From assembly GCA_017463225.1 (NCBI GenBank), contig JAFTPO010000053.1, positions 1 to 34,621 of the forward strand: 34,621 nucleotides of DNA, in the 5' to 3' direction. The DNA is from Lachnospiraceae bacterium. Its GTDB lineage: Bacteria; Bacillota; Clostridia; Lachnospirales; Lachnospiraceae. Position 1 is the stretch's first letter, and each line of letters begins with the position of its first letter. The notes beneath the pieces were generated by a model, which saw only the letters and a list, made by a program, of their open reading frames with translations, was not told the DNA's origin and made no database searches. This document shows positions 8,715 to 33,102 of the stretch, one piece after another. The translations under genes were made by a program, and so were the position numbers.

Positions 8715-10517
8715 ATGTTGAGAGAGGATTCACATAAGCTATTAGTGAAAAAGAAAGAAGAATATAACAGGCAGCTAGCTGAGAAGACAAGGCTTGAGGG
8801 AACTATAACTGCACTTAGAGCAGTTACGTTTATAGCAGGCTTTTGTTTGATTGCCATAGGATTGTCGGAGGATAATATGCTGTGGTGCTTGGGAGCTGCT
8901 TTTTTGATAGGCTTTATTTTACTGGTAAGAATACACAATAAACATGATTCCCAGGTTAACAGATTAAAAGCCGGGTTATCTACGGTGGATAAGCTGCTTA
9001 TGGGATATGAGGAAACCTGGAATCAGATTGAGGACGATGGTGGGCAGTTTATGGAAGATGAAGATTATTTCGCCAAAGATGTAGATATGCTGGGCTTTAA
9101 TTCTCTCTATCAGAAGATTAATCTTGCTCATACATCTAAGGGAAAGATGATGTTGGCCAAGCTGCTCTCTTTAAAAGAAGATGTTGCTTTGACAAGAGAA
9201 ACCAGACAACAGGCTATAAAGGAACTTTGTCAGGATGCAGACTTTGTTGTAGATTTCTCGTCGGCTACTAAGCTACTTGATAATAAAAAGACTAAGAGTG
9301 ACAGCTTAGATGAATTTGCTAAGTATTGCGGAGATAAAAATGTGGGAGCATTGCCTGGGTGGGCAAAGGTGATAAGTATAATATTCCCGGTAGCATTTTG
9401 GGTAGCCTTTATATTGTGGCTATGTGATGTTACTCATTATGGATATGCTTTAGTAATATTTTTTGTTAACCTATCGGTGAATATATTAACCAGACATGTG
9501 ACAGATAGAATTATTCAACCTGTATATGTTATGTGCATTCTCTTTGAGAATTATATGCAGGTGCTTAAAGTAGTCAGTGGTAAGGAGTTTAAGTCCGAAA
9601 GACTCAAAGAGTTGCACCATAGACTCTGCGGAGAGGATGGTACCTACACTGCCTTTAATAAGCTCAAGGGTATAAGTCAGGCGTATAACATATCTTATAA
9701 TCCGGTCATTCACCAGGTGTTTGCATCAGTGTTCTTCTGGGATTACCAGTTGGCTAGAGCAGTTGGTAACTGGAAGGAAAAGTATGGAGCAAATGTGGCA
9801 GACTGCTTTGATAACATAGGTGAGCTGGAAGCGTTAATCAGTCTTGCTTCTATAGGAATTACTCACCAGTGCTGCTGGGGTGAATTAAGCTTCGATGATA
9901 AGGTAAGCCTTAAGGTAGAGGATGCGTATCATCCTTTGATTGACCAAAGCAAGGTTGTGTCTAATAGTGCAACCTTAGAGGATGGTATAACCATTATTAC
10001 CGGTTCTAATATGTCCGGAAAAACAACCTTCTTAAGGACACTTGCCATTAATCTGGCGTTGCTTTATATTGGCGCTCCTGTGTGCGCTAAGGAATTTAAG
10101 AGCAGCTATATGAAGATATTTACATCTATGAGAGTGACAGATGATGTGGCTCATGGAATATCAACATTTTATGCAGAGATACTTCGTATAAAGACCATGT
10201 CTGAATATAAAAAATGTGGCAAGCCTATGCTTTGCCTTATAGATGAGATATTTAAGGGGACAAACTCTGCGGACAGAATAGTTGGAGCTAAGGGTGTAAT
10301 AACAGGATTGTCCGGGGAAAACACTATGGTAATAGTTTCTACCCACGATTTTGAACTGTGCAGTCTTACTAACCAGTCAGGAGAACAGGTGGCGAATTAT
10401 CATTTTGAGGAATATTATCAGGACGATATGCTCAAGTTTGACTACAGCATTAAGGATGGAAGATGTACCACAACCAATGCTAAAGCTATCTTAAAAATGG
10501 CAGGTTTTAGTGTATAG
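8715..10517 (+). CDS. MutS-like ATPase with transmembrane segments
   Basis: 600 residues. The C-terminal part (about 410-600) is a MutS-type ABC ATPase: Walker A at 430-438 (GSNMSGKTT), LRTLAINLALL after it, Walker B LCLIDE with D510/E511, then FKGTNSADR as signature-like region and VSTHD as the H-loop. The N-terminal part has no MutS mismatch-recognition domain. Instead there is a predicted coiled coil (about 10-32) and hydrophobic pairs at about 34-72 and 217-258, so the protein is probably membrane-bound. Family members are annotated as mismatch-repair-like, but a role in mismatch repair is doubtful for a protein of this architecture. The AGGAG (8697-8701) lies 13 nt from ATG 8715, which is long; in-frame ATT 8709 would be better spaced. 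A three-codon frame ATG-AAA-TTG-TAA (8704-8715) overlaps the start as TAATG. Confidence 0.85.
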   Translation: MLREDSHKLLVKKKEEYNRQLAEKTRLEGTITALRAVTFIAGFCLIAIGLSEDNMLWCLGAAFLIGFILLVRIHNKHDSQVNRLKAGLSTVDKLLMGYEETWNQIEDDGGQFMEDEDYFAKDVDMLGFNSLYQKINLAHTSKGKMMLAKLLSLKEDVALTRETRQQAIKELCQDADFVVDFSSATKLLDNKKTKSDSLDEFAKYCGDKNVGALPGWAKVISIIFPVAFWVAFILWLCDVTHYGYALVIFFVNLSVNILTRHVTDRIIQPVYVMCILFENYMQVLKVVSGKEFKSERLKELHHRLCGEDGTYTAFNKLKGISQAYNISYNPVIHQVFASVFFWDYQLARAVGNWKEKYGANVADCFDNIGELEALISLASIGITHQCCWGELSFDDKVSLKVEDAYHPLIDQSKVVSNSATLEDGITIITGSNMSGKTTFLRTLAINLALLYIGAPVCAKEFKSSYMKIFTSMRVTDDVAHGISTFYAEILRIKTMSEYKKCGKPMLCLIDEIFKGTNSADRIVGAKGVITGLSGENTMVIVSTHDFELCSLTNQSGEQVANYHFEEYYQDDMLKFDYSIKDGRCTTTNAKAILKMAGFSV

Positions 10518-10574
10518 ACTTCTTTGTCAAATATGACGAATTGTGACTTGTGTTAAAAATACACAAAATAATCC

Positions 10575-10598
10575 ACTTTTTTTAGCAAAAAAGTTTTG
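10575..10598 (+). terminator. Weak AT-only hairpin after the MutS-like gene
   Basis: ACTTTTTT (10575-10582), loop TAGC, AAAAAAGT (10587-10594), then TTTG. The stem has almost no GC, so termination here is uncertain. No better terminator is seen between 10518 and the next promoter. Confidence 0.3.
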
Positions 10599-10643
10599 TT
10601 AATTATGCACAATGCCAATTATGAAAAAATAACAAAAACCTAG

Positions 10644-10716: not shown

Positions 10717-12801
10717 ATGGCATTACCAGCTAATATAACAGGTTCAGACAATAATGTTTTATCAATAGCTGCATCTAATAATAAGGGATTGCTTATAAGA
10801 TTCCTTAACGAGCAGGTTGAGGATGGCTTTTACGCATTAGTTATCGACTATTTAAAGGATAGTAACTTTGATCTATCAACTATGATGGTTGATGAGGATG
10901 TTAAGGTACAGTGTACTAAGCTCTATGAGCTTGGAGAGTTCGTTGACGAGAACATTAAGGCTACAGGCCGCTACGAGATTGAGGAATGGATTGAGCCATT
11001 ATTTAGATTTGTGTATGGAGATATTGATCCTACAGATATTGATGCTCCTATAAACACAACAGGAATTTACAGATATAGTATTTGGTTAATCTATCTCTAC
11101 CAGAGAGAGCGTTTTACAGATGCTATGAGACTTATCGGTGAGAGAATCGCACCACTTCTTATTAATGTAAGCTATCAGATATTAGAGGACGATGACAGAC
11201 CTAAGAATTACGACAAGGCTGTTATGGGATATCTTGATCTTATTAATGTTATTATGGAGATGGGCATTCCTGCAGGAGATGCTAACTCAGATGCATATAT
11301 GAATAACCTTGAGGTGTTATTCGATTATGTTGTTGAGGATCCACATGTAGGCAATGATTACAAGATTCAGTTCTCTATCGGTTTATTTAATGCTTACATA
11401 ACAAACAAGGATTTCAGTAAGGCGTTTGAGTTCTATGGACTTAACGCTGAGTACATACCTATTGACAATATGTCAGTGTATGAGAGCTTCAAGGAGCTTA
11501 TCAGAAATACTAATTCTGCACAGAACACAAGCGTTCTTAGCAGAAGCGTAATCAACGCTATTTCTAAGCAGGAGATTTATAACAAGAGAATTGATACACT
11601 TATCGGAGAGGTTTCAAACTTTGTTAAGAAGGTATACCAGTACATTGAGAATGAGCCTAATATGAAGAAGAATCTTCAGATTCTTGGAGCAGGTGCATCA
11701 CTTAAGGATAAGACTAATGTGTTTGAGGGTCTTTACGAGTACAACCTTGTATTCCATGAGTGTGGTATCAAGGCAATCGTTAACCAGGATAACGCAACCC
11801 GTTCATGGGAGGAGAAGTATGAGATATTAGAGCTTCTTTATACTACTCTTAATGTTATCTTTGATGGATATAATGTATATGAGATTTCTAACAAGATTGA
11901 GCACCAGTATGTTGAGCTCACTTGGATTGGAGATTATGTAAATGCTAACCCAACACTTCTTAAGCTGTTCTTCAGCGTAAAGGAGAAGGTTAAGGCATTT
12001 AAGGTTAGAAAGAATTCTATTCTCGAGAAGTCTAAGACAAACTATGAGATTAAGCAGATGATTGATGACAGACAGAAGGCTCTGGTATTCATGAGTGCTG
12101 AGGATATGATTTCTAACGGACTTAACAGTGGCACAGTAAATATTATTAATAACAGCTATGACCCTAAGAAGGCTGAGGCTTACTTGGTTAAGACTTACAA
12201 GGAGATTCAGGTTCCTGCTAAGTACAAGAAGGCTGAGGTTCCACAGACTGGTGGTAAGCTCTTTGGTAAGGCTGCAGCTCCTGCTATGGATGCAGACCTT
12301 AAGAAGCTTCTTTCAGACACTAAGATTGAGGAGATGCTCCTTAAGTCAGAGTGGTTATGGAATCAGTACCAGGATAAGGGTAATGACAAGCAGACTCCGG
12401 AGGAGAGTACTTACAGTGTAGTATGTCTTGTTAAGGTAATTGAGAAGCTTCTCGACAGAAAGGGCTCTGGTCAGGCTAAGCAGGAGTCAGCTCCTAACAA
12501 GAAGGTTATCATTACTAAGACCGGTAAGGTTATTGAGCTTTCAGATGAGGGTTCAAACACACCTGTATCTAACACAGCACAGACTCCTAATGTTATCGAG
12601 AATATCAATAACATTATAGTAGCACTTAAGGATAAGTCAGAGGAGAATGTAGCTTACGTTCAGTCATATGTTAATGATTGGCTTAACACAATCGTTGCAG
12701 CTAAGATTGATAAGACTGTTATGTTACCTTTATACGAGGCAGAGGAGATTAGAACTAAGACTCTTCAGGTTATTAAGAAGCTTCGTGCAGATTTATTATA
12801 A
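10717..12801 (+). CDS. Large soluble helical protein of unknown function
   Basis: 694 residues; I do not recognise the family. There is no signal peptide, no membrane segment, no Walker motif, no zinc-ligand cluster and no obvious catalytic signature. The composition is leucine-, isoleucine- and charge-rich and mostly helical, with repeat-like helical hairpins between about 60 and 440 (for example RYSIWLIYLYQRERF, EKYEILELLYTTLNVIF) reminiscent of a helical-repeat scaffold. A flexible linker rich in Lys/Ala/Pro/Gly lies around 505-525, another around 610-640 (PNKK, EGSNTPVSNTAQ), and a helical C-terminal part follows (645-694). Codon use (AAG for Lys, GAG, CTT) matches the rpl/rpo genes and differs from the low-expression genes on either side. 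It is a single-gene unit with its own near-consensus promoter and a GC-rich terminator, pointing to an abundant housekeeping or structural role. Function unassigned. Confidence 0.85.
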   Translation: MALPANITGSDNNVLSIAASNNKGLLIRFLNEQVEDGFYALVIDYLKDSNFDLSTMMVDEDVKVQCTKLYELGEFVDENIKATGRYEIEEWIEPLFRFVYGDIDPTDIDAPINTTGIYRYSIWLIYLYQRERFTDAMRLIGERIAPLLINVSYQILEDDDRPKNYDKAVMGYLDLINVIMEMGIPAGDANSDAYMNNLEVLFDYVVEDPHVGNDYKIQFSIGLFNAYITNKDFSKAFEFYGLNAEYIPIDNMSVYESFKELIRNTNSAQNTSVLSRSVINAISKQEIYNKRIDTLIGEVSNFVKKVYQYIENEPNMKKNLQILGAGASLKDKTNVFEGLYEYNLVFHECGIKAIVNQDNATRSWEEKYEILELLYTTLNVIFDGYNVYEISNKIEHQYVELTWIGDYVNANPTLLKLFFSVKEKVKAFKVRKNSILEKSKTNYEIKQMIDDRQKALVFMSAEDMISNGLNSGTVNIINNSYDPKKAEAYLVKTYKEIQVPAKYKKAEVPQTGGKLFGKAAAPAMDADLKKLLSDTKIEEMLLKSEWLWNQYQDKGNDKQTPEESTYSVVCLVKVIEKLLDRKGSGQAKQESAPNKKVIITKTGKVIELSDEGSNTPVSNTAQTPNVIENINNIIVALKDKSEENVAYVQSYVNDWLNTIVAAKIDKTVMLPLYEAEEIRTKTLQVIKKLRADLL

Positions 12802-15596: not shown

Positions 15597-18500
15597 ATGA
15601 AGAAAAAACTATTCACCAAAATTGCAGCCCTGGCTATGACAGCCGTGCTTGCACTGGGAAATGTTAATATCACGCCTAAGGCGGAAGATACATTCCCTAA
15701 GACACCAGACCCGGCAATATACAAATATGAATATGAGCCGGAAAGTGGAGTAAATCCACTTTACGCAGCAACTAAGTTCCATATTTTCGCACAGGAGAGT
15801 GCCAGCTTAAGTGCTCACTGTAACGGTAATATGGCAACACCACTTATGTATCACAATGTAAACAGTGGTTCTAACAAGGTATACACAGATGTCTCAGGAA
15901 CAGAGGTAACCTATATAGGTCAGCTTGCTCCTGGTTTCAATGGAACCTTTGCAGCGACTACAGATACACATATTGTATTTGGTAGAGACACAGAGATTAA
16001 GCTTATGAATGGTGTGGATGTTTTTGCTACTGATTCAGCTGGCAACTACAGCAAGGTTAATACCAATAAGGACTTAATCTACAAAGAGGGAGCAAAGGAT
16101 TATATTGACTTTGATGATGAGTTCAGTAAGCTTAATAAGCTTTCTATAAATCTTGCATCAGAGGCTTCTACAGCTGAGGTTAAAGAAAATGTTGTAAAGA
16201 TGCCTGCAGGCACTGATACTTATTATATCAATGCAGATTCTTCTCAGTTTATGAATAGAGCATTCATAATTGAAAACTGTGATTTTAAGAAAGGACAGGC
16301 GTTAGTTATCAACGTTAACGTAGGTACTGCCACAACATATGAATTGCCTTTCACACAGGTTCTCTTTAAAGATACTGATGGAGATGATTTCGGTACTGGT
16401 GAGGATAAGGGAGAGTACACAGGACTTGGAAATATACTTTGGAACTTCTATGGCACAGATGCCAACGGCAACATAGTTCCATTTACAGGCACCTTAAAGA
16501 CATGTACAGAGTTTAAGGGTACAGTTCTTGCTCCTAGTGCACATATTACAACAGCAGCTTCTAACCAGGACGGTAACTTCATCGGTAAGATAGTTGATCT
16601 TGGTTCAGGAGAGACACATAGATGGGATTTCGGCGGAAAGCTTAAGAACTATGCTCCAACAGGAACAGTAACTGTTGTGGTTAAGGATGATAAGGGCAAT
16701 CCTATCTCAGATGTTATTGTTAAGGTTGAGGATACAAAGAATAATACTTTTGATTTGGAAACAGATGACAAGGGTGTAACTACTACACTTGATGGTCTTC
16801 CTCTCGATAAATATACAGCAACAATTACAGTGCCAGAGGGCTACGAGCTTGTTGTAGGTGAAACAGCTACAAAGTCAGAGACTATAACTGAGGCAAAGCC
16901 TGATGCTACTATTGAGTTCACAGTAAAGAAGAAGGAAGAGGCACCAAAGACAGGATACTTCAATATTTCAGTTATAGATAAAGATACAGGAGCTTTAGTT
17001 CCTGATGTAAAGGTAACTATTTCGGAGAATGGTTCAACTACAGCTATTGAGAGTTTAACTACCGGAACAAACGGTAAGGTAGATTCAAGCAAGATGGATC
17101 TTGCTACTGATGGTACATGGGATAAGTATGACATCGCAATTACTGTACCAGACGGTTACATAATGTATAATGGTACAAGCAATAAGGTAACAGATGAACT
17201 TACAGATGCTAACCCAGATAAGGTTGAGTTTGTAATCGTTAAGAAGCCTATTCCTACAGGTGCTATCCAGATTGAGGTTGTTTCTAAGAATGCCGGTTCT
17301 GATGAAGAGAGAGCAGTTGAGGGAGCAAAGGTTACAGTTAAGGATAATGCATCTCATATCGTAAAGGAAGTAACAGTAATAACTGATGATGATGGTCTTA
17401 CACCAGTAGTTGATAAGCTTGAGTTAGCTAAGTATACAACTACCATAGATGAGACTACTATACCTGCTGGCTTTAAGCTTGAGGCTAGTGAGACTGTTGT
17501 TAAGGATGTAAACGTTGCAGAGACTGGTAAAGTATATCAGGTTAAGTATGTTCTCGTACAGGAGGCAGGTTCTCTTGTAGCAAAGGTTACAGATGAGGAT
17601 AACAAGGCTGTTCCAGGGGTAACAGTAGAGATACTTGATAAAAATGGTGATTCTGTTGGAGAGTTCACAACAAATAACAAGGGTCTTACAGATGAGTTGT
17701 ATGATCTTTTAGCAGATGACAAGTATACAGCTAATATAGTAGCTGTTCCTGATGGATATCAGGTTGTTACAGGAACAGGCTCAAAGACAATAATTGATAA
17801 CAAGCTTGTTCAGATTGATCTTAAGGTTGAGAAGATTCCTACAGCAGGAATTAAGGCAACTGTAGTAACTCAGGATGGTACTGCAGTATCAGGAGTTGAG
17901 GTAGCAGTTAAGGATTCAAAGGGTAAGAATGTAACTACACTTGTAACAGGTGGTACTACAGATACAGTTAAGAATCTTGAGCTTGGCGATTACAAGACAA
18001 CTATTACTGTACCAGATGGATACAAGCTTGTAAGCGAGAATGCGACAGTAGATGTTAAACTTTCAGAGAAGGATAAGATATACGAGGTTGAGTATGTTAT
18101 CGCTAAGGAAGTTAAGACTGGTGACCTTAAGGTTACAGTAACTGATTTAAAGGGCAACCTTATAGAGGGTGCAACAGTTAAGGTTACTGATAAGGCAGGT
18201 AATCCAGCAGGAACAGCTACCGAAGTTTACAATACAGACGAAGATGGCTTAGCTGCAGAGATTAAGGGACTTCCTGTTGGAACTGAGTATGTTGCAACAG
18301 TTACAGCAGCTCCAGAGGGATATGTTGTATCAAAGACTACAAATTACACAACAGGCTCTAATACAATAGTAGCCGACAAGTGTGTAGAGATAATTCTTAA
18401 GGTTGAGGAAGAACCTGCTGAGCCAGTAGGTAATTTACATGTAATTATTAAGGATGCAGTAACAGGCGAGCTTATTGAGGGCGCAAAGATTGTAGTTAAG

Positions 18501-20780
18501 GATTCAGAGGGCAACGTTAAGGAAACTGTTACAACTGATAAGACTGGAGAATTCACAGTAAAGGATTTGCCAGAGGACATTTATACAGTTGAGACAGTGA
18601 CTGTGCCGGATGGATACACTGCTCCTGACAAGGAGACTCAGACAGTAGTGGCTAACAAGACTGCAGAGGTTCCATTAGAGGTTGAGAAGGTACCTGGAAG
18701 TCTTAGCGTGGTTATTACAGACTCAAAGACTGGAGAGGTAATTCCAGATGCTAAGGTAGAGATTACCAACGATAAGATTGGCTATAAGGAAACCTTCACT
18801 ACAGATGAAAACGGTAAGATAGCAGTAGATAAGCTTTATCCAGGTGACTACACAGTAACTACAACTGAAGTACCTAAGGATTATAATACCCCAGATGCAA
18901 AGACAGATACTGTTGTATCAGGTGCGAACACTAATGTTCCTCTTACAGTAGAGAAGGAGCCAGGTAAGCTTATTGTAACTATTGTAGATGCAAATAATGG
19001 AGATCCAATTCCAGATGCAAAAGTTGTTATAACAAGTAAGAATGACAAGGTAGGATACAGCCAGGAGATAGAGACAGACGATGAGGGTAGAATTGAGATA
19101 GACAAGCTTTATCCAGGTGAGTATGACATTGTAACAAAGGAAGTTCCTGGTGAATATGATAAGGCTGATTGGCCAAAGCCTACAACAGCTACTGTAATAT
19201 CAGGTGGAACAACACAGAAGGATTTGGAGGTACCTGCTGATAAGACTACAACTCCAGATACAGGTAACCTTCAGGTAACAATAAGAGATAAGTATTCAAA
19301 GGACCCTATCGAGGGTGCAACAGTTGTTATAACAAGCAAGGATGACCCAACCTTCAAGAAAGAGGTTGTTACAGATGAGAAGGGTCAGTATAAGGTAGAG
19401 GGCTTAGAGCCAGGCGATTATGTAGTAACAACAACTAAGGTTCCAGAGGGCTATACAGCTCCTGATGAGGAAACTGATGAGGTAATAGCAGGACAGACTA
19501 CAGTAGTAGACTTAATCGTATTCAAGCCAGGTGCAATAGATGTAACCGTAATTGAGAAGGGTACTGATAAGCCAATACCTGATGCAAAGGTTGATATTAT
19601 CGACGAGGAAACTAAAGAAGTAGTTAAGGAAGTAACTACAGATAAGAATGGTAATGTCATTGTAGATAATATGGAGCCAGGTGATTACATCATCCATGTT
19701 CCAGATGTACCAGGCTATGAGGAGCCGGGGGATAAAACTGTAACAGTTAAGCCAGGCGAGACTACTCCTGAGAAGCTTGAGGTTGAGAAGGATCCAGGTA
19801 CTCCTGTAGTTCAGCCAGGTAAGTTAGATGTAACTATTATTGACAAGAACACACAGGAATATATTCCTAATGCTACAGTTCAGATTGTTGACAAGACTGG
19901 TACTGTTATAAAAGAGGTAACAACTAACAGCCAGGGTAATGTAGTTGTTGATAATCTTGAGCCAGGTTCAGTTACTATTCATGTTGTAGATACTCCACAG
20001 TATGCAGAGCCTGATGATGAGACAGTTGTTATTGAGGCAGGTAAGACTACTACAGAGATTCTTGAGGTTGAGAAGGTTGGTCAGATGCAGATTGTTATAA
20101 CTGACAAGAACGACCCAACTAAGCCTATTCCAAATGCTACAGTAGTAGTTAAGGATAAGGATGGAAAGACTGTTGCAACTCTTACAACTGATAAGAATGG
20201 TAAGACTGATATAGTTAAGGATTTAACTATCGGTGAGACATTTACTATAGAGACAACAACAGTTCCAGAGGGATACACTCCACCTACACCAACAACTCAG
20301 AAGATTACAAAGACTGAGCTTGAGGTAGTAGAGCTTGTAGTAAGCCGTGATAGTGGTGTAACAAGTTCAGTAGGTAGCTTATACGTAATCATTACAGATA
20401 AGAATACAGGAGATGTAATTCCAGATGCTACAGTTGAGGTTTCAAACTCAAAGGGTGAGAAGATTCAGACAGTAGTAACTGACAAGACTGGTTCATTTAC
20501 TATTACAAATCTTAAGCCGGACACTTATACTATAAAGACTACAAAGGTTCCAGCAGGCTATACAGCTCCAGAGACTCAGACTGCAGGAGTTAAGTCAAAT
20601 GCAAGAACTGATGTACATCTTTATGTAGCTAAGGAAGCAACAAATACAAATAAGCCTAACATTGACACAGTAGTTCAGACTGGCGATGATTCAAACGTAG
20701 GTATGGCAGGTGTGCTTGCACTTATATCTGTATTAGGAATCGCAGTAATAATGTTTATGAAGAAGAGAGAAGAGGCTTAA
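15597..20780 (+). CDS. LPXTG-like cell-wall-anchored Cna-B repeat protein
   Basis: 1727-residue predicted surface protein. Residues 1-30 are a Sec signal peptide (KKK, then a hydrophobic core, ending ITPKAE). Residues about 40-354 resemble a choice-of-anchor-A domain, best seen at FKGTVLAPSAHIT and GNFIGKI before its end. From T355 to about 1680 there are about 14 tandem Cna-B/prealbumin-like beta-sandwich repeats of 85-105 residues, each with a start like GxLxVxIxD, a middle TDxxG and an end VPxGY. These domains build extended stalks. The C-terminus has VVQTGDD (Q1694-T1695-G1696), a hydrophobic span 1702-1722 and KKREEA, a QTG-type sortase signal instead of LPXTG. No sortase is in the window. 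It stands alone, with its own promoter and terminator, and codon use suggests strong expression. Role in adhesion is inferred from architecture; the ligand is unknown. Confidence 0.9.
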   Translation: MKKKLFTKIAALAMTAVLALGNVNITPKAEDTFPKTPDPAIYKYEYEPESGVNPLYAATKFHIFAQESASLSAHCNGNMATPLMYHNVNSGSNKVYTDVSGTEVTYIGQLAPGFNGTFAATTDTHIVFGRDTEIKLMNGVDVFATDSAGNYSKVNTNKDLIYKEGAKDYIDFDDEFSKLNKLSINLASEASTAEVKENVVKMPAGTDTYYINADSSQFMNRAFIIENCDFKKGQALVINVNVGTATTYELPFTQVLFKDTDGDDFGTGEDKGEYTGLGNILWNFYGTDANGNIVPFTGTLKTCTEFKGTVLAPSAHITTAASNQDGNFIGKIVDLGSGETHRWDFGGKLKNYAPTGTVTVVVKDDKGNPISDVIVKVEDTKNNTFDLETDDKGVTTTLDGLPLDKYTATITVPEGYELVVGETATKSETITEAKPDATIEFTVKKKEEAPKTGYFNISVIDKDTGALVPDVKVTISENGSTTAIESLTTGTNGKVDSSKMDLATDGTWDKYDIAITVPDGYIMYNGTSNKVTDELTDANPDKVEFVIVKKPIPTGAIQIEVVSKNAGSDEERAVEGAKVTVKDNASHIVKEVTVITDDDGLTPVVDKLELAKYTTTIDETTIPAGFKLEASETVVKDVNVAETGKVYQVKYVLVQEAGSLVAKVTDEDNKAVPGVTVEILDKNGDSVGEFTTNNKGLTDELYDLLADDKYTANIVAVPDGYQVVTGTGSKTIIDNKLVQIDLKVEKIPTAGIKATVVTQDGTAVSGVEVAVKDSKGKNVTTLVTGGTTDTVKNLELGDYKTTITVPDGYKLVSENATVDVKLSEKDKIYEVEYVIAKEVKTGDLKVTVTDLKGNLIEGATVKVTDKAGNPAGTATEVYNTDEDGLAAEIKGLPVGTEYVATVTAAPEGYVVSKTTNYTTGSNTIVADKCVEIILKVEEEPAEPVGNLHVIIKDAVTGELIEGAKIVVKDSEGNVKETVTTDKTGEFTVKDLPEDIYTVETVTVPDGYTAPDKETQTVVANKTAEVPLEVEKVPGSLSVVITDSKTGEVIPDAKVEITNDKIGYKETFTTDENGKIAVDKLYPGDYTVTTTEVPKDYNTPDAKTDTVVSGANTNVPLTVEKEPGKLIVTIVDANNGDPIPDAKVVITSKNDKVGYSQEIETDDEGRIEIDKLYPGEYDIVTKEVPGEYDKADWPKPTTATVISGGTTQKDLEVPADKTTTPDTGNLQVTIRDKYSKDPIEGATVVITSKDDPTFKKEVVTDEKGQYKVEGLEPGDYVVTTTKVPEGYTAPDEETDEVIAGQTTVVDLIVFKPGAIDVTVIEKGTDKPIPDAKVDIIDEETKEVVKEVTTDKNGNVIVDNMEPGDYIIHVPDVPGYEEPGDKTVTVKPGETTPEKLEVEKDPGTPVVQPGKLDVTIIDKNTQEYIPNATVQIVDKTGTVIKEVTTNSQGNVVVDNLEPGSVTIHVVDTPQYAEPDDETVVIEAGKTTTEILEVEKVGQMQIVITDKNDPTKPIPNATVVVKDKDGKTVATLTTDKNGKTDIVKDLTIGETFTIETTTVPEGYTPPTPTTQKITKTELEVVELVVSRDSGVTSSVGSLYVIITDKNTGDVIPDATVEVSNSKGEKIQTVVTDKTGSFTITNLKPDTYTIKTTKVPAGYTAPETQTAGVKSNARTDVHLYVAKEATNTNKPNIDTVVQTGDDSNVGMAGVLALISVLGIAVIMFMKKREEA
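16659..20636 (+). repeat. Array of about 14 diverged Cna-B-type repeat units
   Basis: Unit starts by residue of the surface protein: 355, 452, 554, 657, 749, 839, 944, 1034, 1123, 1222, 1312, 1408, 1495, 1593. Units share the fold-defining pattern but differ clearly at DNA and protein level, so the array is old rather than a recent expansion. Units 7-14 are more alike (shared DAKV/DATV, VTTDKxG, EPGDY, EVEK linkers) than units 1-6. Confidence 0.85.
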
Positions 20781-25037: not shown

Positions 25038-25122
25038 TATACAATGTCATTATTATGGCTATGTGTGCCATAATTTCAGATAGATAAGAAAAACCAAATA
25101 AAATCAAGGGGTGAATGCGTCG

Positions 25123-28100
25123 ATGAAAAAGTACAGAATGCGTCCTGTGGAATCGGGAAGAGGAATGCGAATGAGTTTTTCAACTGAGAAGCAAGTTTTG
25201 GATATGCCAAATCTTATCGAAGTTCAGAAAGATTCATATCAGTGGTTTTTAGACGAGGGCTTATTAGAGGTATTTAGAGATATCTCTCCTATAGTGAGCC
25301 ATTCTAAGACATTGAGTTTAGAATTTGTGGATTTTCAGCTGTGTGAAGAGGACAAGAAGTATACTATCGAGGAGTGTAAGGAGAGAGATGCAACTTACGC
25401 TGCTCCACTTAAGGTAGTTGTTAGACTTCGTAATCTTGAAACAGATGAGATAGCACAGCATGATATATTCATGGGAGATCTCCCTCTTATGACTGAGACA
25501 GGCACATTTGTTATAAATGGTGCAGAGAGAGTTATAGTAAGCCAGTTGGTTCGTTCACCTGGTATATATTATGGAATAGAGCATGATAAGTATGGTAAGA
25601 AGCTTTTCAGCTCAACAGTTATTCCAAACCGTGGAGCATGGTTAGAGTATGAGACAGACTCTAATGATGTTTTCTATGTGCGTGTTGATAGAACTAAGAG
25701 AGTTCCTATCACTGTACTTATTAGAGCACTTGGCATAGCTACTAATCAGGAGATTATCGATTTGTTTGGCGATGAGCCTAAGATTAGAGCAAGCTTTGAG
25801 AAGGATGCTTCTAACAGTTATGAGACAGGTATTATCGAGCTTTATAAGAAGGTAAGACCAGGAGAGCCTGCGCTTGTTGAGAGTGCTGAGAATCATATCA
25901 ATAATATGTTCTTTGACGCGAGAAGATATGATCTTGCTAAGGTTGGTCGTTACAAGTTCAATAAGAAGCTTGCATTTAAGAATAGAATAACAGGACAGAC
26001 TCTTGCAGAGGATGTTGTTGACCCATCAACAGGTGAGGTTATGTATAAGGCAGGCACAGTTGTTACACGTGAGGATGCTATTGCTATACAGAACGCAGCT
26101 GTTCCGTTTGTATGGGTTCAGACTGAGGAGAGAAATATCAAGATTCTCTCTAACTTAGTTGTTGATATGTCTAATTACGTAGGATTTGATCCTAAGGAGA
26201 TTGGCATAACAGAGGACGTTTATTACCCAGCATTAGAAAAGCTTTTAACAGAGTATGATAATGATGAGGATTTAAAGAAGGCAGCTGCGGCAGCTATCAA
26301 TGATTTGGTTCCAAAGCATATTACAAGAGAGGATATTTTTGCATCTATTAACTATAATATCCATCTTGAGTATGGTATCGGTAGTTCAGATGATATCGAT
26401 CACCTTGGTAACAGAAGAATTAGAGCCGTAGGAGAGCTTCTCCAGAATCAGTACAGAATAGGTTTATCAAGACTTGAGAGAGTAGTAAGAGAGAGAATGA
26501 ACACTCAGGATGTTGAGTCTATCACCCCACAGTCTCTTATTAACATCAAGCCTGTTACTGCGGCTGTTAAGGAGTTCTTTGGAAGCTCACAGCTTTCACA
26601 GTTTATGGATCAGAACAACCCACTTTCAGAGCTGACTCACAAGAGACGTCTTTCAGCTCTCGGTCCTGGTGGTTTGTCAAGAGATAGAGCAGGTTTCGAG
26701 GTTCGAGATGTTCACTATACTCACTACGGTAGAATGTGTCCTATCGAGACACCTGAAGGTCCTAACATCGGACTTATTAACTCACTTGCAACATATGCAC
26801 GAATTAATGAGTATGGTTTTGTTGAGGCACCTTATAGAAAGATAGATAAGACTGACCCTAAGAATCCAGTGGTTACAGATGAGGTTATTTACCTTGCAGC
26901 AGATGAGGAGGATAACTACATTGTAGCTCAGGCGAATGAGCCACTTGATAACGAAGGTCACTTTGTAAATAAGAAGGTTTCAGGTAGATATAGAGAGGAG
27001 ACTACTGAGTTCTCCAAGTCAAAGGTAGATCTTATGGACGTATCACCTAAGATGGTATTCTCTGTAGCTACATCTATGATTCCTTTCCTTGAGAACGATG
27101 ATGCTAACCGTGCCCTCATGGGTTCTAACATGCAGCGTCAGGCAGTTCCACTTCTTAAGACAGAGGCTCCTGTTGTAGGTACAGGTATGGAGTCTAAGGC
27201 AGCTGTAGATTCAGGTGTATGTATAGTTGCAAAGAATGATGGTGTTGTAGAGATATCATCAAGTGAGAAGATTATTGTTAAGTGTGATGATGGTACAAGA
27301 GATGAGTACCACGTTACTAAGTTCTCTAGAAGTAACCAGGGTAACTGTATGAACCAGAGACCTATCGTTAAGCGTGGCGATAAGGTAACTAAGGGTATGG
27401 TTATAGCTGATGGTGCATCAACTTGTGGTGGTGAGATTGCACTTGGTAAGAACCCTCTTATCGGTTTCATGACTTGGGAAGGTTACAACTACGAGGATGC
27501 GGTTCTTCTCAGTGAGAGACTTGTTAAGGAAGATGTTTATACATCTGTTCATATTGAGGAGTACGAGATTGAGGCTAGAGATACTAAGCTTGGTGCAGAG
27601 GAGATAACCAGAGACCTTTCAGGATTATCTCAGGATGCATTAAAGGATCTTGATGAGAATGGTATCATCAGAGTAGGTGCTGAGGTTCGTGCCAGAGATA
27701 TATTGGTTGGTAAGGTTACTCCTAAGGGAGAGACTGAGCTTTCATCAGAAGAGAGACTTCTTAGAGCTATCTTCGGCGAGAAGGCTAGAGAGGTTAGAGA
27801 TACTTCACTTCGTGTGCCACACGGTGCATATGGTGTTGTTATGGATACAAAGGTATTTACAAGAGAGAATGGCGATGAGCTTCCACCAGGAGTAAATAAG
27901 ACAGTTAGAGTTTACATCGCACAGAAGAGAAAGATATCAGTAGGAGATAAGATGGCTGGACGTCATGGTAACAAGGGTGTTATCTCACGTATCCTTCCTG
28001 TAGAGGATATGCCATTCCTTCCAAATGGTAGACCACTTGATATCGTTCTTAACCCTCTTGGAGTTCCTTCACGTATGAACATCGGACAGGTTCTTGAGAT

Positions 28101-28962
28101 TCACTTAAGTCTTGCTGCTAAGGTGTTAGGCTTTGATGTATCTACTCCTGTATTCGATGGTGCTAACGAGTTCGATATTATGGATGCTTTAGATATGGCT
28201 AACGATTACGCTAACAGTGATTGGGAGACATTCTACGAGAAGTATAAGGATGATACAGAGAAAGAGGTAATGGATTATCTCTATGAGAACAGAGACCACA
28301 GAAAGGAATGGGAGGGAGTACCTATTAACCGTTCCGGTAAGGTTACTCTTAGAGATGGTAGAACAGGAGAGGAGTTTGATTCACCAGTTACTATTGGATT
28401 CATGCATTACCTTAAGCTTCACCACCTTGTTGACGATAAGATTCATGCACGTTCAACAGGTCCTTACTCACTGGTAACTCAGCAGCCACTTGGTGGTAAG
28501 GCTCAGTTCGGTGGACAGAGATTTGGAGAGATGGAGGTTTGGGCTCTTGAGGCATATGGTGCATCATATACACTTCAGGAGATCCTTACTGTTAAGTCTG
28601 ATGATATGGAGGGTCGTACAAAGACCTTCGAGGCAATCACTAAGGGTGAGAATATACCTACACCAGGTATTCCAGAGTCATTCAAGGTATTGCTTAAGGA
28701 GTTCCAGTCACTTGGTCTTGATGTAAGAGTATTAAATGATGATAACACTGAGGTTGAGTTCGGTGAGTCAGCAGCTGATGCTCCAGATAAGGCTATCACA
28801 GCCCTTATTACAGGTGATGAGGATTACTCAGAGGATTTAGAGTCAAGAGGATACCGCGTAGACGATGCTGACGCTATGGATGATGATTCATTCCTTACAG
28901 AGTCAGATGATTTCGAGGAGTTCGGTGACTTTGATGATTCAAGCGACGATGATGAGTTTTAA
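25123..28962 (+). CDS. rpoB: DNA-directed RNA polymerase subunit beta
   Basis: 1279-residue catalytic beta subunit, cytoplasmic, assembling with alpha2, beta' and sigma. The rifampicin-binding cluster reads [20 protein letters not shown] and then [12 protein letters not shown], matching the drug-sensitive form at the D516, H526 and S531 equivalents. Further landmarks: [31 protein letters not shown] (active-site lysines), [23 protein letters not shown]. The body ends near residue 1200; a long acidic tail follows ([12 protein letters not shown] up to DDSSDDDEF). ATG 25123 is preferred over GTG 25111, which overlaps the AAGGGGTG ribosome binding site. rpoC starts 18 nt later, so the pair is co-transcribed. 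Confidence 0.98.
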
Positions 28963-28980: not shown

Positions 28981-31900
28981 ATGTCAGATGTAAAGAACGA
29001 GACTATGCAGCAGCAACCTTTATATTTTGATTCAATCAAGATAGGACTTGCGTCTCCTGAGAAGATTAGAGAGTGGTCTAGAGGTGAGGTTACTAAGCCA
29101 GAGACTATAAATTATAGAACTCTTAAGCCAGAGAGAGATGGTTTATTCTGTGAGAGAATATTTGGACCATCTAAGGATTGGGAGTGTCACTGTGGTAAAT
29201 ATAAGAAGGTTCGCTTTAAGGGAACTGTCTGTGAGAGATGTGGTGTAGAGATTACTAAGGCAAGCGTTAGACGTGAGAGAATGGGACATATTGAGCTTGC
29301 TGCACCGGTATCACATATTTGGTATTTTAAGGGTATTCCTAGCCGTATGGGACTTATCCTTGATATATCTCCTAGATATTTAGAGAAGGTACTTTATTTT
29401 GCATCATACATCGTACTTGATGCAGGAAGTACAACACTTGAGTATAAGCAGATACTCTCAGAGGCTGAGTTCAGAAATGCTGAGAGTGAGTTTGGCAACA
29501 ACTTCAGAGTTGGTATGGGAGCTGAGGCAATCAAGGAGCTTCTTCAGAATATCGACTTAGAAAAGGAGTCTGCAGAGCTTAAGGAAGAGTTAGCTAACTC
29601 AAATGGTCAGAAGAAGGCCAGAATCGTTAAGAGACTTGAGGTAGTAGAGGCATTCAGAAACTCTGAGAATAAGCCGGAGTGGATGATTATGGATGCTATA
29701 CCTGTAATCCCACCAGATATTAGACCTATGGTTCAGCTTGATGGTGGTAGATTTGCAACATCAGATTTAAATGACTTATATAGAAGAATTATTAACCGTA
29801 ACAATCGTCTTAAGAAGTTACTTGAGCTTGGAGCACCTGATATTATCGTTCGTAACGAGAAGAGAATGCTTCAGGAGGCTGTTGACGCACTTATTGACAA
29901 CGGTAGAAGAGGTCGTGCAGTAACAGGCCCTGGTAACAGAGCACTTAAGTCACTTTCAGATATGCTTAAGGGTAAGCAGGGACGTTTCCGTCAGAACCTT
30001 CTTGGTAAGCGTGTTGACTATTCAGGACGTTCGGTTATCGTCGTAGGACCAGAGCTTAAGATTTATCAGTGTGGTCTCCCTAAGGAGATGGCTATTGAGT
30101 TATTCAAGCCATTCGTTATGAAGGAGCTTACAGCTAGAGGTTTAGCAAATAACATTAAGGCGGCAAAGAAACTTGTTGAGAAGCTTGATACAGTAGTTTG
30201 GGATGTGCTTGAGGATGTTATCAAAGAGCATCCGGTTATGCTTAACCGTGCTCCTACTCTTCACAGACTTGGTATCCAGGCATTTGAGCCAATCCTTGTA
30301 GAGGGTAAGGCTATTAAGCTTCATCCACTTGTATGTACAGCGTACAATGCAGACTTCGATGGCGACCAGATGGCAGTGCATCTTCCACTTTCAGTAGAGG
30401 CACAGGCAGAGTGTAGATTCCTTCTCCTCTCACCTAACAACCTTCTTAAGCCATCAGATGGTGGTCCTGTGGCAGTTCCTTCACAGGATATGGTACTCGG
30501 TATTTACTACCTTACTATGGATAAGTTTGCTGAGATTTCTGAAGAGGAGGCATTAGCTCAGGGTATCGCTAAGGAGTACCTTAAGGATGATGAGAATGCA
30601 AACCTTGATGATCTTAATGCAGATGGACTTGCAGGTGTTGTTAAGGCATCAGATATAGTTAAGGTTAGGGTAATAAAGAAGACCTCTATAGATAAGGATA
30701 CCAAGAAGGCAGAGCACTTCTATAAGGATATCTATGGAAGCGTTAAGGCTTTCATGAAGCCGGTATTTGGTAGCACAAATCTTGCTATGCTTGCATATGA
30801 GAATGGTGAGATTACACTTCATCAGAAGATTAAGGTTAAGAGAACAGTTACTACAGCTGATGGAGAGGTTGTATCCGGAATCATAGAGTGTACTATGGGT
30901 AAGCTTATATTCAACGAGGTAGTACCTCAGGATTTAGGCTTTGTTGATAGAAGTAAGAAGGAAAATGCGCTTAAGCTTGAGATTGATTTCCATGTTGGAA
31001 AGAAGCAGCTTAAGAAGATTCTTGATAAGTGTATCAATACTCACGGAGCTACTAAGACAGCTGAGGTTCTTGATGATATCAAGGCTATGGGTTACAAGTA
31101 TTCAACAAAGGGTGCTATCACAGTATCAGTATCTGATATGACAGTACCTGCAGTTAAGAAGGACTTACTTGCTGAGGCTCAGGAGACAGTTGATAAGATT
31201 GCAAACTTCTACGGTAGAGGTTACCTCACTGAGGAAGAAAGATATAAGAGTGTTGTTAAGATTTGGACAGCAACAGATAATAGGCTTACTAAGGCGCTTC
31301 TTGACGGCCTTGATAAGTACAACAATATTTACATGATGGCTGATTCAGGAGCGAGAGGTTCTGATCAGCAGATTAAGCAGCTTGCCGGAATGAGAGGACT
31401 TATGGCGGATACATCAGGACGTACCATCGAGCTTCCTATCAAGGCAAACTTCCGTGAGGGTCTTGATGTACTTGATTACTTCATCTCAGCTCATGGTGCT
31501 CGTAAGGGTCTTTCTGATACAGCTCTTCGTACAGCGGATTCAGGATACCTTACACGTCGTCTTGTTGATGTATCACAGGATCTCATTATTCGTGAGGTTG
31601 ACTGTCAGGCTGATTCAGACGAGAAGCCAGGTATGAGTGTTCAGGCATTTATGGATGGTAAGAAGGAGATTGAGTCACTTCAGGAGAGAATTACCGGACG
31701 TTACTTAGCAGACAGCATCTTCGATAAGAATGGCGTTATGCTTGTTAAGAAGAATCATATGGTAACTCCAAAGAGAGCTGACTTAATTATAAGCAAGGGT
31801 GTAGATAATGATGGCAAGCCATTTACTTACTATACATTAACAGTAGCCCTTACAGACAGCAAGAAGGATGCTCCGGTAGCTAAGGCAACAGTAGAGATTC

Positions 31901-33102
31901 TCGGCTCAGATGGAAATGTAGTGGCAGAGGTTGTTACTGATGGCAACGGTATGGCTACAGTTGAGAAGCTTGCATACGATGAGTATTCAGTAAATGTTGT
32001 TAAGGCTCCAAAGGGTGCTAGCGTAGTAGAAAAGGTTACTCTTTCTAACAGTGGTTCAAGAAAGGGTGCAAGAATTAGAATTAGAACAGTTATTACATGT
32101 AAGTCACATATCGGTATATGTTCAAAGTGTTATGGTGCAAACATGGCAACAGGTCAGGCAGTTCAGGTTGGTGAGGCTGTAGGTATTATAGCAGCACAGT
32201 CAATCGGTGAGCCTGGTACACAGCTTACCATGAGAACATTCCATACAGGTGGTGTTGCCGGTGATGATATTACACAGGGTCTTCCTAGAGTTGAGGAGCT
32301 TTTCGAGGCTAGAAAGCCAAAGGGACTTGCAATACTTGTAGAGTTCGGTGGCGAGGTTGAGATTAGAGATACTAAGAAGAAGCGTGAGGTTGTAATAACT
32401 AACAAGGAGACTGGAGAGTCAAAGGCATACCTCATTCCATTTGGTTCAAGACTTAAGGTTGAGGATGGTCAGATTCTTGAGGCTGGTGATGAGCTTACAA
32501 TCGGTTCAGTTAATCCACATCAGCTCCTTGAGATTAAGGGTGTTCGTGCTGTACAGGATTACATCATCAAAGAGGTACAGGGCGTATATCGTACACAGGG
32601 TGTTGAGATTAACGATAAGCATATTGAGGTTATCGTTCGTCAGATGCTCAAGAAGATTAAGGTAGAGGATAATGGAGATACTAAGTATCTTCCAGGAACT
32701 CTTGTAGATGCATTAGAGTTTGAGGATGAGAACAACAAGATGATAGCAGAGGGCAAGAAGCCGGCTGTTGGAACTCAGAACATCCTCGGTATTACTAAGG
32801 CATCACTTGCTACAAATTCATTCCTTTCAGCAGCTTCCTTCCAGGAGACTACAAAGGTTCTTACTGAGGCAGCTATCAAGGGTAAGGTTGATCCACTTAT
32901 CGGACTTAAGGAGAACGTCCTTATCGGTAAGCTTATACCTGCAGGTACAGGTATGAAGAGATATCGCGATGTAAAGCTTGATACTGGTGAAGAAGATATC
33001 GTTGAAGAGGTAGAGGAAGAAGTAGTAGCAATCGCTACTGAGGTTGCAGAGCCAGAGGCTGATGCAATTAATCCAGAGGACGACTCTACTGATGAGGAGT
33101 AA
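28981..33102 (+). CDS. rpoC: DNA-directed RNA polymerase subunit beta' with two insertions
   Basis: 1373-residue beta' subunit. Normal parts: first zinc site C69/C71/C84/C87; catalytic [12 protein letters not shown] with D458, D460, D462; bridge-helix region [21 protein letters not shown]; second zinc site C875, C1040, C1047, C1050; trigger-loop region [15 protein letters not shown]-terminal [14 protein letters not shown]; acidic tail from about 1335. Two segments are extra. Residues about 516-588 follow YYLTMDK; D462-to-C875 spans 413 residues against 350 for D464-to-C814 in E. coli. Residues about 948-1030 lie between the first and second zinc-site cysteines, 165 apart against 74 in E. coli. 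The second insert reads as a Cna-B-like beta-sandwich. The frame is uninterrupted and flanks are conserved, so these are not frameshift artefacts. AAAGGAG precedes ATG 28981. Confidence 0.97.
30526..30744 (+). other. Insertion 1 in beta' (residues ~516-588)
   Basis: About 73 residues between YYLTMDK and [10 protein letters not shown]. The first half is acidic and helix-prone ([17 protein letters not shown], then an Asp/Asn-rich stretch); the second half is basic and strand-prone ([15 protein letters not shown]). It contains codons ATA, ACC and AGG, sparse in the surrounding gene. Fold and role unknown. Confidence 0.65.
31822..32070 (+). other. Insertion 2 in beta': Cna-B/transthyretin-like domain (residues ~948-1030)
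   Basis: About 83 residues following [10 protein letters not shown] and ending before [12 protein letters not shown]. It shows the pattern of a small seven-strand beta-sandwich repeat: LTVALTD, then [34 protein letters not shown], and VEKVTLS. Repeat 14 of the surface protein in this window has the same order, with identical ATVE and VVTD words. It lies on the beta' segment between zinc-site cysteines C875 and C1040. Confidence 0.75.

Follow-up and report, generated by a model that had tools for sequence, protein, structure and literature searches.

Lineage-specific insertions in RNA polymerase (the BEAN, HABAS/SBHM and sLC types, and SI3) place an extra domain in the beta or beta' subunit and leave the core untouched. 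According to the text of PMC11515920, the main types have BEAN and HABAS folds, track large lineages and are placed in early evolution, and its 11 rare variants with at most three species, Firmicutes included, are again BEAN, HABAS or sLC. Domain insertion into the enzyme is argued there to have tapered off after early evolution, the mechanism being unclear and genome context suspected to play a part. Nowhere in the main text of that paper are the words Cna, transthyretin, immunoglobulin or beta-sandwich used. Insertion domains of RNA polymerase are a known kind of feature, and in the open-licence PMC literature that we searched (titles and abstract starts), no description of a Cna-B, SpaA or Ig-like domain in RpoC was found.

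The segment analyzed here resembles these insertions in that a domain is added to beta' and the core appears untouched, but it belongs to the SpaA/Cna-B type and occurs in one species of those searched, whereas the known types are BEAN, HABAS and sLC (the insert being named by Pfam).

The host gene and its genome

The window, meaning the whole stretch of DNA that was analyzed, is the entire contig C60 of 34,621 bases, from a draft genome (G000) of 2.77 Mb in 95 contigs, with a completeness of 97.34% and a contamination of 3.8%. Its relatives among named sequences are mostly Lachnospiraceae, many of them metagenome-assembled and some with rumen or caecum titles. The features of the host gene, all on the + strand, are as follows:

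25111..28962, +, rpoB, the upstream neighbor of rpoC (gene order as in G008, G013 and G015)
28981..33102, +, rpoC, RNA polymerase beta' subunit, 1373 aa (single open frame; TIGR02386)
31603..31605, +, Cys875, first residue of the second zinc site (from the translation; invariant in the 31 rows of RpoC alignment A3)
32098..32130, +, Cys1040, Cys1047 and Cys1050, remainder of the second zinc site (from the translation; invariant in the 31 rows of A3)

The product of rpoC matches TIGR02386 over its full length with 1762 bits (cut-off 963.5), is the only RpoC match in the genome with a protein query, and contains NADFDGD, the catalytic motif of beta'. Its frame is clean and its flanks are conserved around the insertion, as had been claimed before: a single open frame runs from 28981 to 33102. 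In partial RpoC rows (residue 300 onward), 516 of the 518 columns invariant across 29 RpoCs of the genus are kept in G000, both changed columns lying at 1181-1182, and the same test applied to the three nearest relatives, or sisters, gives 3/508, 0/505 and 1/506 changes. Compared with these sisters, the gene has a dN of 0.077-0.084, a dS of 0.56-0.65 and a dN/dS of 0.12-0.14, and by these sequence measures it looks functional.

Cys875, Cys1040, Cys1047 and Cys1050 are presumably zinc ligands, a role that we carry over from E. coli. The translation agrees with the earlier note that C875 and C1040 are 165 residues apart; the zinc-site cysteine pair of E. coli, C814/C888, is spaced by 74.

Elsewhere in the window, a 694-aa open frame (10717-12801) between a MutS-like gene and uvrC has no Pfam match at 0.001.

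Limits and domain family of the insert

Two features, again on the + strand, define the insertion:

31828..32058, +, inserted segment, residues ~950-1026, 77 aa (by comparison with L033-L035)
31837..32037, +, SpaA / Cna-B prealbumin-like domain, residues 953-1019 (Pfam PF17802; profile built without the insert)

In place of the insert, the three nearest relatives have a five-residue loop, VDGAV or VDGSV, which makes a net gain of 72 aa here (limits drawn by eye; aligners move them by a few residues). The G008 sequence reads GVDENGVPFT-VDGAV-RKDATIKIRT, and those of G013 and G015 are nearly identical. With its length taken from the DC of the first zinc cysteine up to the RIRTVITC block, this segment has 157 residues in G000, 85 in the three nearest relatives, and 85-87 in 28 of the 29 genus loci measured (76 in the other), each locus standing for a different genome among the 30 other RpoC-matching ones, with G024 absent. 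It is 75-76 residues long in 54 of the 76 named loci measured, mostly from Lachnospiraceae; these 76 come from 80 loci, and the remaining four (L108, L125, L143 and L158) did not fit the measuring pattern, and on inspection they look ordinary. Loops of the genus thus lie ~9-11 residues above the usual 75-76 of the family. The earlier note had set the spacing of 165 against the 74 of E. coli, but the insert makes up only part of this excess: by sequence comparison, the new domain adds a net 72 residues, the remainder being older and already present in relatives with 85.

A Cna-B-like segment had been proposed at RpoC residues 948-1030 (31822-32070), with a Pfam search as the check, and that search places SpaA at 953-1019 within the insert of ~950-1026. 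PF17802 (SpaA) scores 30.8 bits (E 3.3e-7) on the whole RpoC and 37.7 bits (E 2.4e-9) on a 102-aa piece, both above the cut-off of 23.1, and CarboxypepD_reg scores 35.0 bits on the piece, above its cut-off, and 28.0 on the whole protein, below the cut-off of 32.3. No SpaA match was obtained in the RpoC of G008 and G013 at E up to 1. The PF17802 match spans profile positions 3-76 of 91, so that the last strand falls outside it. An independent profile, for which 75 adhesin repeats (73 of them distinct) were taken from the genus and the insert was left out, gives 48.7 bits in the whole RpoC and 55.9 bits in the piece; in 2000 shuffles of the piece, the best score was 13.9 bits, and a chance match is excluded by this comparison.

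All 14 columns that are hydrophobic in at least 80% of the 75 adhesin repeats are also hydrophobic in the insert (14/14), and the figure for the polar columns of the profile in this hydrophobic-core comparison is 4/31. The isopeptide-forming Lys and Glu, which are typical of many SpaA/Cna-B members and not of all, are missing, with L and V at these places. The solved structures closest to it in sequence are of a collagen adhesion protein, in two versions (E 1.2e-4 and 1.4e-4). A profile of 43 rows matches the Cna-B protein 6fwv with an E of 1.8e-25, but 42 of the 43 rows are adhesin repeats, so this match says more about the family than about the insert. Membership of the insert in the adhesin-type SpaA/Cna-B family is well supported, its fold being predicted from sequence profiles. 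In its sequence family, core pattern, length and Lys/Glu-less subtype (the last also seen in the neighboring adhesin), the insert is like the PF17802 repeats of adhesins; unlike them, it is a single copy inside a cytoplasmic enzyme, with the last strand outside the profile match.

The site in beta' and the distribution among relatives

The match on the N side of the insert ends at E. coli residue 878; in chain 6wvj_D, which we take to be from B. subtilis, it ends at 882 and the C-side match starts at 884. The strand running to zinc cysteine 1040 follows directly after the insert. The beta' shelf, jaw included, is given as E. coli 787-931/1135-1150/1216-1317 in PMC6970531 and SI3 as 932-1215 in PMC13114784. 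These limits bear out the earlier view that the insertion is outside the trigger loop and not of the SI3 type: SI3 lies in the trigger loop and consists of SBHM/HABAS domains, whereas the present insert follows residue 878 and is SpaA by Pfam. As the enzyme swivels during pausing, the shelf is described as rotating together with the clamp, the jaw and SI3 (PMC6336406, PMC9378689). By our own mapping onto the domain table of PMC11515920, the insert falls where the BEAN domain beta'-bD5 ends; going by the text and domain table of that paper, it may correspond to the "second half of beta'-bD5", location (iv) of the seven insertion locations listed there.

The length of this loop varies in relatives, with segments of 94-134 residues in 6 of the 76 measured named loci, and these lengths point to a permissive loop. 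In five of these six (L091, L092, L093, L098 and L160), a scan gave no additional Pfam domain at cut-off. In this loop of RpoC, L091 (within the match 10001-10633) and L092 (within 10001-10600) carry insertions of ~34-45 residues that are charged and perhaps helical, and L093 (JAEEVK010000148.1, about 386-670) has a second BEAN-like unit at the same place, 19/42 residues being identical, which would be a duplication inside beta'.

Within the genus, 31 of 37 genomes match RpoC with a 247-residue query, and G000 is the sole carrier of the insert among them: in each of the other 30, the alignment to the query is interrupted at the insert. The six genomes without an RpoC match include G005, which has the syntenic adhesin described below. 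In G002, two contigs (C102 and C52) carry different rpoC matches, with 74% and 68% identity to the query, perhaps through bin contamination. In the family, RpoC is matched in 355 of 397 genomes (42 without a match), and, among the matches listed, G000 alone has an unbroken one, the best pieces of non-carriers reaching 157-184 bits, which a carrier should outrank. Orthologues with the same segment in distant Firmicutes, which the earlier note had named as evidence against an insertion, were sought at the levels of order (392 genomes), class (391) and phylum (398) in overlapping samples, and no further carrier was found. These searches used a 132-aa query with cut-offs of 1e-15, 1e-9 and 1e-8, respectively, and list carriers only, the sample sizes being genomes searched whether or not they have an RpoC; a very different insert would be missed. 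A second assembly was sought in IMG/VR with exact 32-base matching, which gave no match, and the carrier evidence comes from one genome and one assembly. The occurrence is more restricted than had been expected, with one genome of those searched and not a clade.

In a tree of 30 partial RpoCs with the insert columns removed, G000 is sister to G015, G008 and G013, with SH-aLRT values of 100 for the four and 98 for the three, and all three sisters lack the insert. Since they do, a single gain on the G000 branch is the shortest account, and the insertion looks young on this tree.

Origin of the domain and competing readings

A candidate donor lies in the same window, 11 kb upstream of rpoC:

15597..20780, +, surface adhesin, 1727 aa, possible donor (ice-binding-like adhesive N domain; SpaA repeats; hydrophobic C-terminal tail, the tail judged by eye)

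This C60 adhesin has 11 SpaA stretches by Pfam and 14 repeats by our own profile, out of 40 SpaA matches in the genome (on C84, C15, C1 and C60). With the insert as query in the genus, the three best non-self matches come from repeats in the adhesins that are syntenic in G008, G005 and G013, led by a G008 repeat at 42% identity (E 9.3e-10), and the next are from G017 and the C60 adhesin itself. This adhesin lies upstream of rpoBC in G008 and G013 as well; in G005, it adjoins the same genes for a transporter and an amidase. Of the 10 further matches to the insert in its own genome, 8 are C60 repeats, and when four Cna-B proteins were compared, the eight best scores (24.5-12.8 bits) all came from C60 repeats, the next protein reaching 8.4; the ten C60 repeats that were compared share 27-39% identity with the insert. 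Like the insert, the C60 repeats mostly lack the isopeptide residues (Lys in 0/14, Glu in 1/14), compared with 6 and 9 of 11 on C84 and 3 and 5 of 9 on C15, although a looser count separates them less well (3 and 3 of 14 on C60; 17 and 15 of 23 on C84, C15 and C1), and the Lys/Glu-less subtype occurs in other adhesins of the genus too.

A first domain tree groups the insert with three repeats from syntenic adhesins (96/85), the bootstrap being unsettled on 66 columns. In a second tree, which includes the other Cna-B proteins of the genome, its placement is unsupported and the nearest neighbor by path is another adhesin family, from G015. The branch of the insert is long in both (1.48 and 1.01). 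DNA similarity to the adhesin is confined to short pieces, the best being 25 bases at 84%, and neither a protein search of the rest of the genome nor a DNA comparison within the window gave a near-identical copy of the insert. Taken together, these sequences suggest that the domain came from an adhesin gene, perhaps the one upstream, and the neighboring C60 adhesin is a plausible source.

The adhesin beside the rplJ-rplL-rpoBC-rpsL cluster evolves fast, with 46-54% identity among G000, G008 and G013 (window 15597-20780; L170 243-4847; L171 600-4517; L175). The G008 adhesin contains three repeats that are identical across the 66-residue domain. Two Cna-B repeats on C84 and at the start of C1 of G000 (L177, L179) are identical in protein sequence, through duplication or at an assembly edge.

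We consider it probable that an adhesin-type SpaA/Cna-B domain was grafted in frame into a permissive beta' loop on the lineage of this species and serves as a non-catalytic appendage. One in-frame event would have inserted a beta-sandwich of the Lys/Glu-less subtype into the variable loop at the end of beta'-bD5, and the tolerance of this loop for length change would have allowed the enzyme core to be retained. A Cna-B sandwich should fold independently, as is established for the family. Here, the domain would likewise be folded and exposed on the surface, projecting from the shelf as a separate unit that leaves the active site alone. Its last strand may be missing or may be provided by the RpoC strand ARIRIRTV; with one of seven strands lost, both ends would lie at the same pole, which would suit a loop. 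The effect on swivelling and pausing would be mild or nil. With the insertion placed on a tip branch, sisters that lack it and a candidate donor nearby, the case makes the mechanism of such insertions open to study, and a permissive beta' site could carry tags or partners. A bolder and rather unlikely extension is that the species built a repeat of the upstream adhesin into the beta' shelf, giving it an extracellular-type protein-binding surface; in that event, the genomic neighborhood would supply the parts, and domain gain would not be confined to early evolution.

Two other readings concern the history of the segment. That adhesin-like sequence was wrongly joined into rpoC during assembly or binning is very improbable: the genome is indeed a draft of 95 contigs with 3.8% contamination, and the IMG/VR scan gave no second copy, but both junctions are in frame and at a loop that varies among relatives, the insert (GC 0.44, GC3 0.33) is close to rpoC (GC 0.42, GC3 0.36) in composition, a near-identical copy that could have been misjoined was not found in the genome by protein or the window by DNA, and the gene is the one rpoC match, in the gene order of G008, G013 and G015. 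An older insertion, in which the domain was present in an ancestor and lost in the sisters or arrived with a foreign piece of rpoC, is improbable, though less so. The long domain branch, the low DNA similarity to the local adhesin and the longer loops of the genus would fit such a history; it requires at least two events, however, no other domain-bearing rpoC was found in the samples from family to phylum, and the RpoC without the insert columns groups with its sisters.

As to function, the preferred account of a graft without catalytic role can be set against a working module for docking or bracing, in which the shelf domain would bind a transcription factor, DNA, the nascent chain or the ribosome, or would stiffen the swivel module and so alter pausing. 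We regard this as unlikely, although several observations are in line with it. The shelf moves in swivelling and pausing (as described in PMC6336406 and PMC9378689), the N-domain of B. subtilis delta is reported to bind between shelf and jaw (PMC7749165), and PMC2939025 describes E. coli precedents on both sides, beta'i6 (SI3) being essential and beta i4 and beta i9 nearly dispensable. All 14 core columns have stayed hydrophobic despite the low identity to the C60 repeats, and 35 of the 37 genus genomes, G000 included, lack a delta-type HARE-HTH match, so the surface may be free. Against this, with only 2 of 518 invariant RpoC columns changed, compensating changes do not stand out, and the lack of delta extends across the genus, with or without the insert. 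The domain as a substitute for the delta subunit was rejected because that absence is genus-wide. The sole member of the genus above the HARE-HTH (delta-like) cut-off is G003, at C23:10097-10252 in a 282-aa frame.
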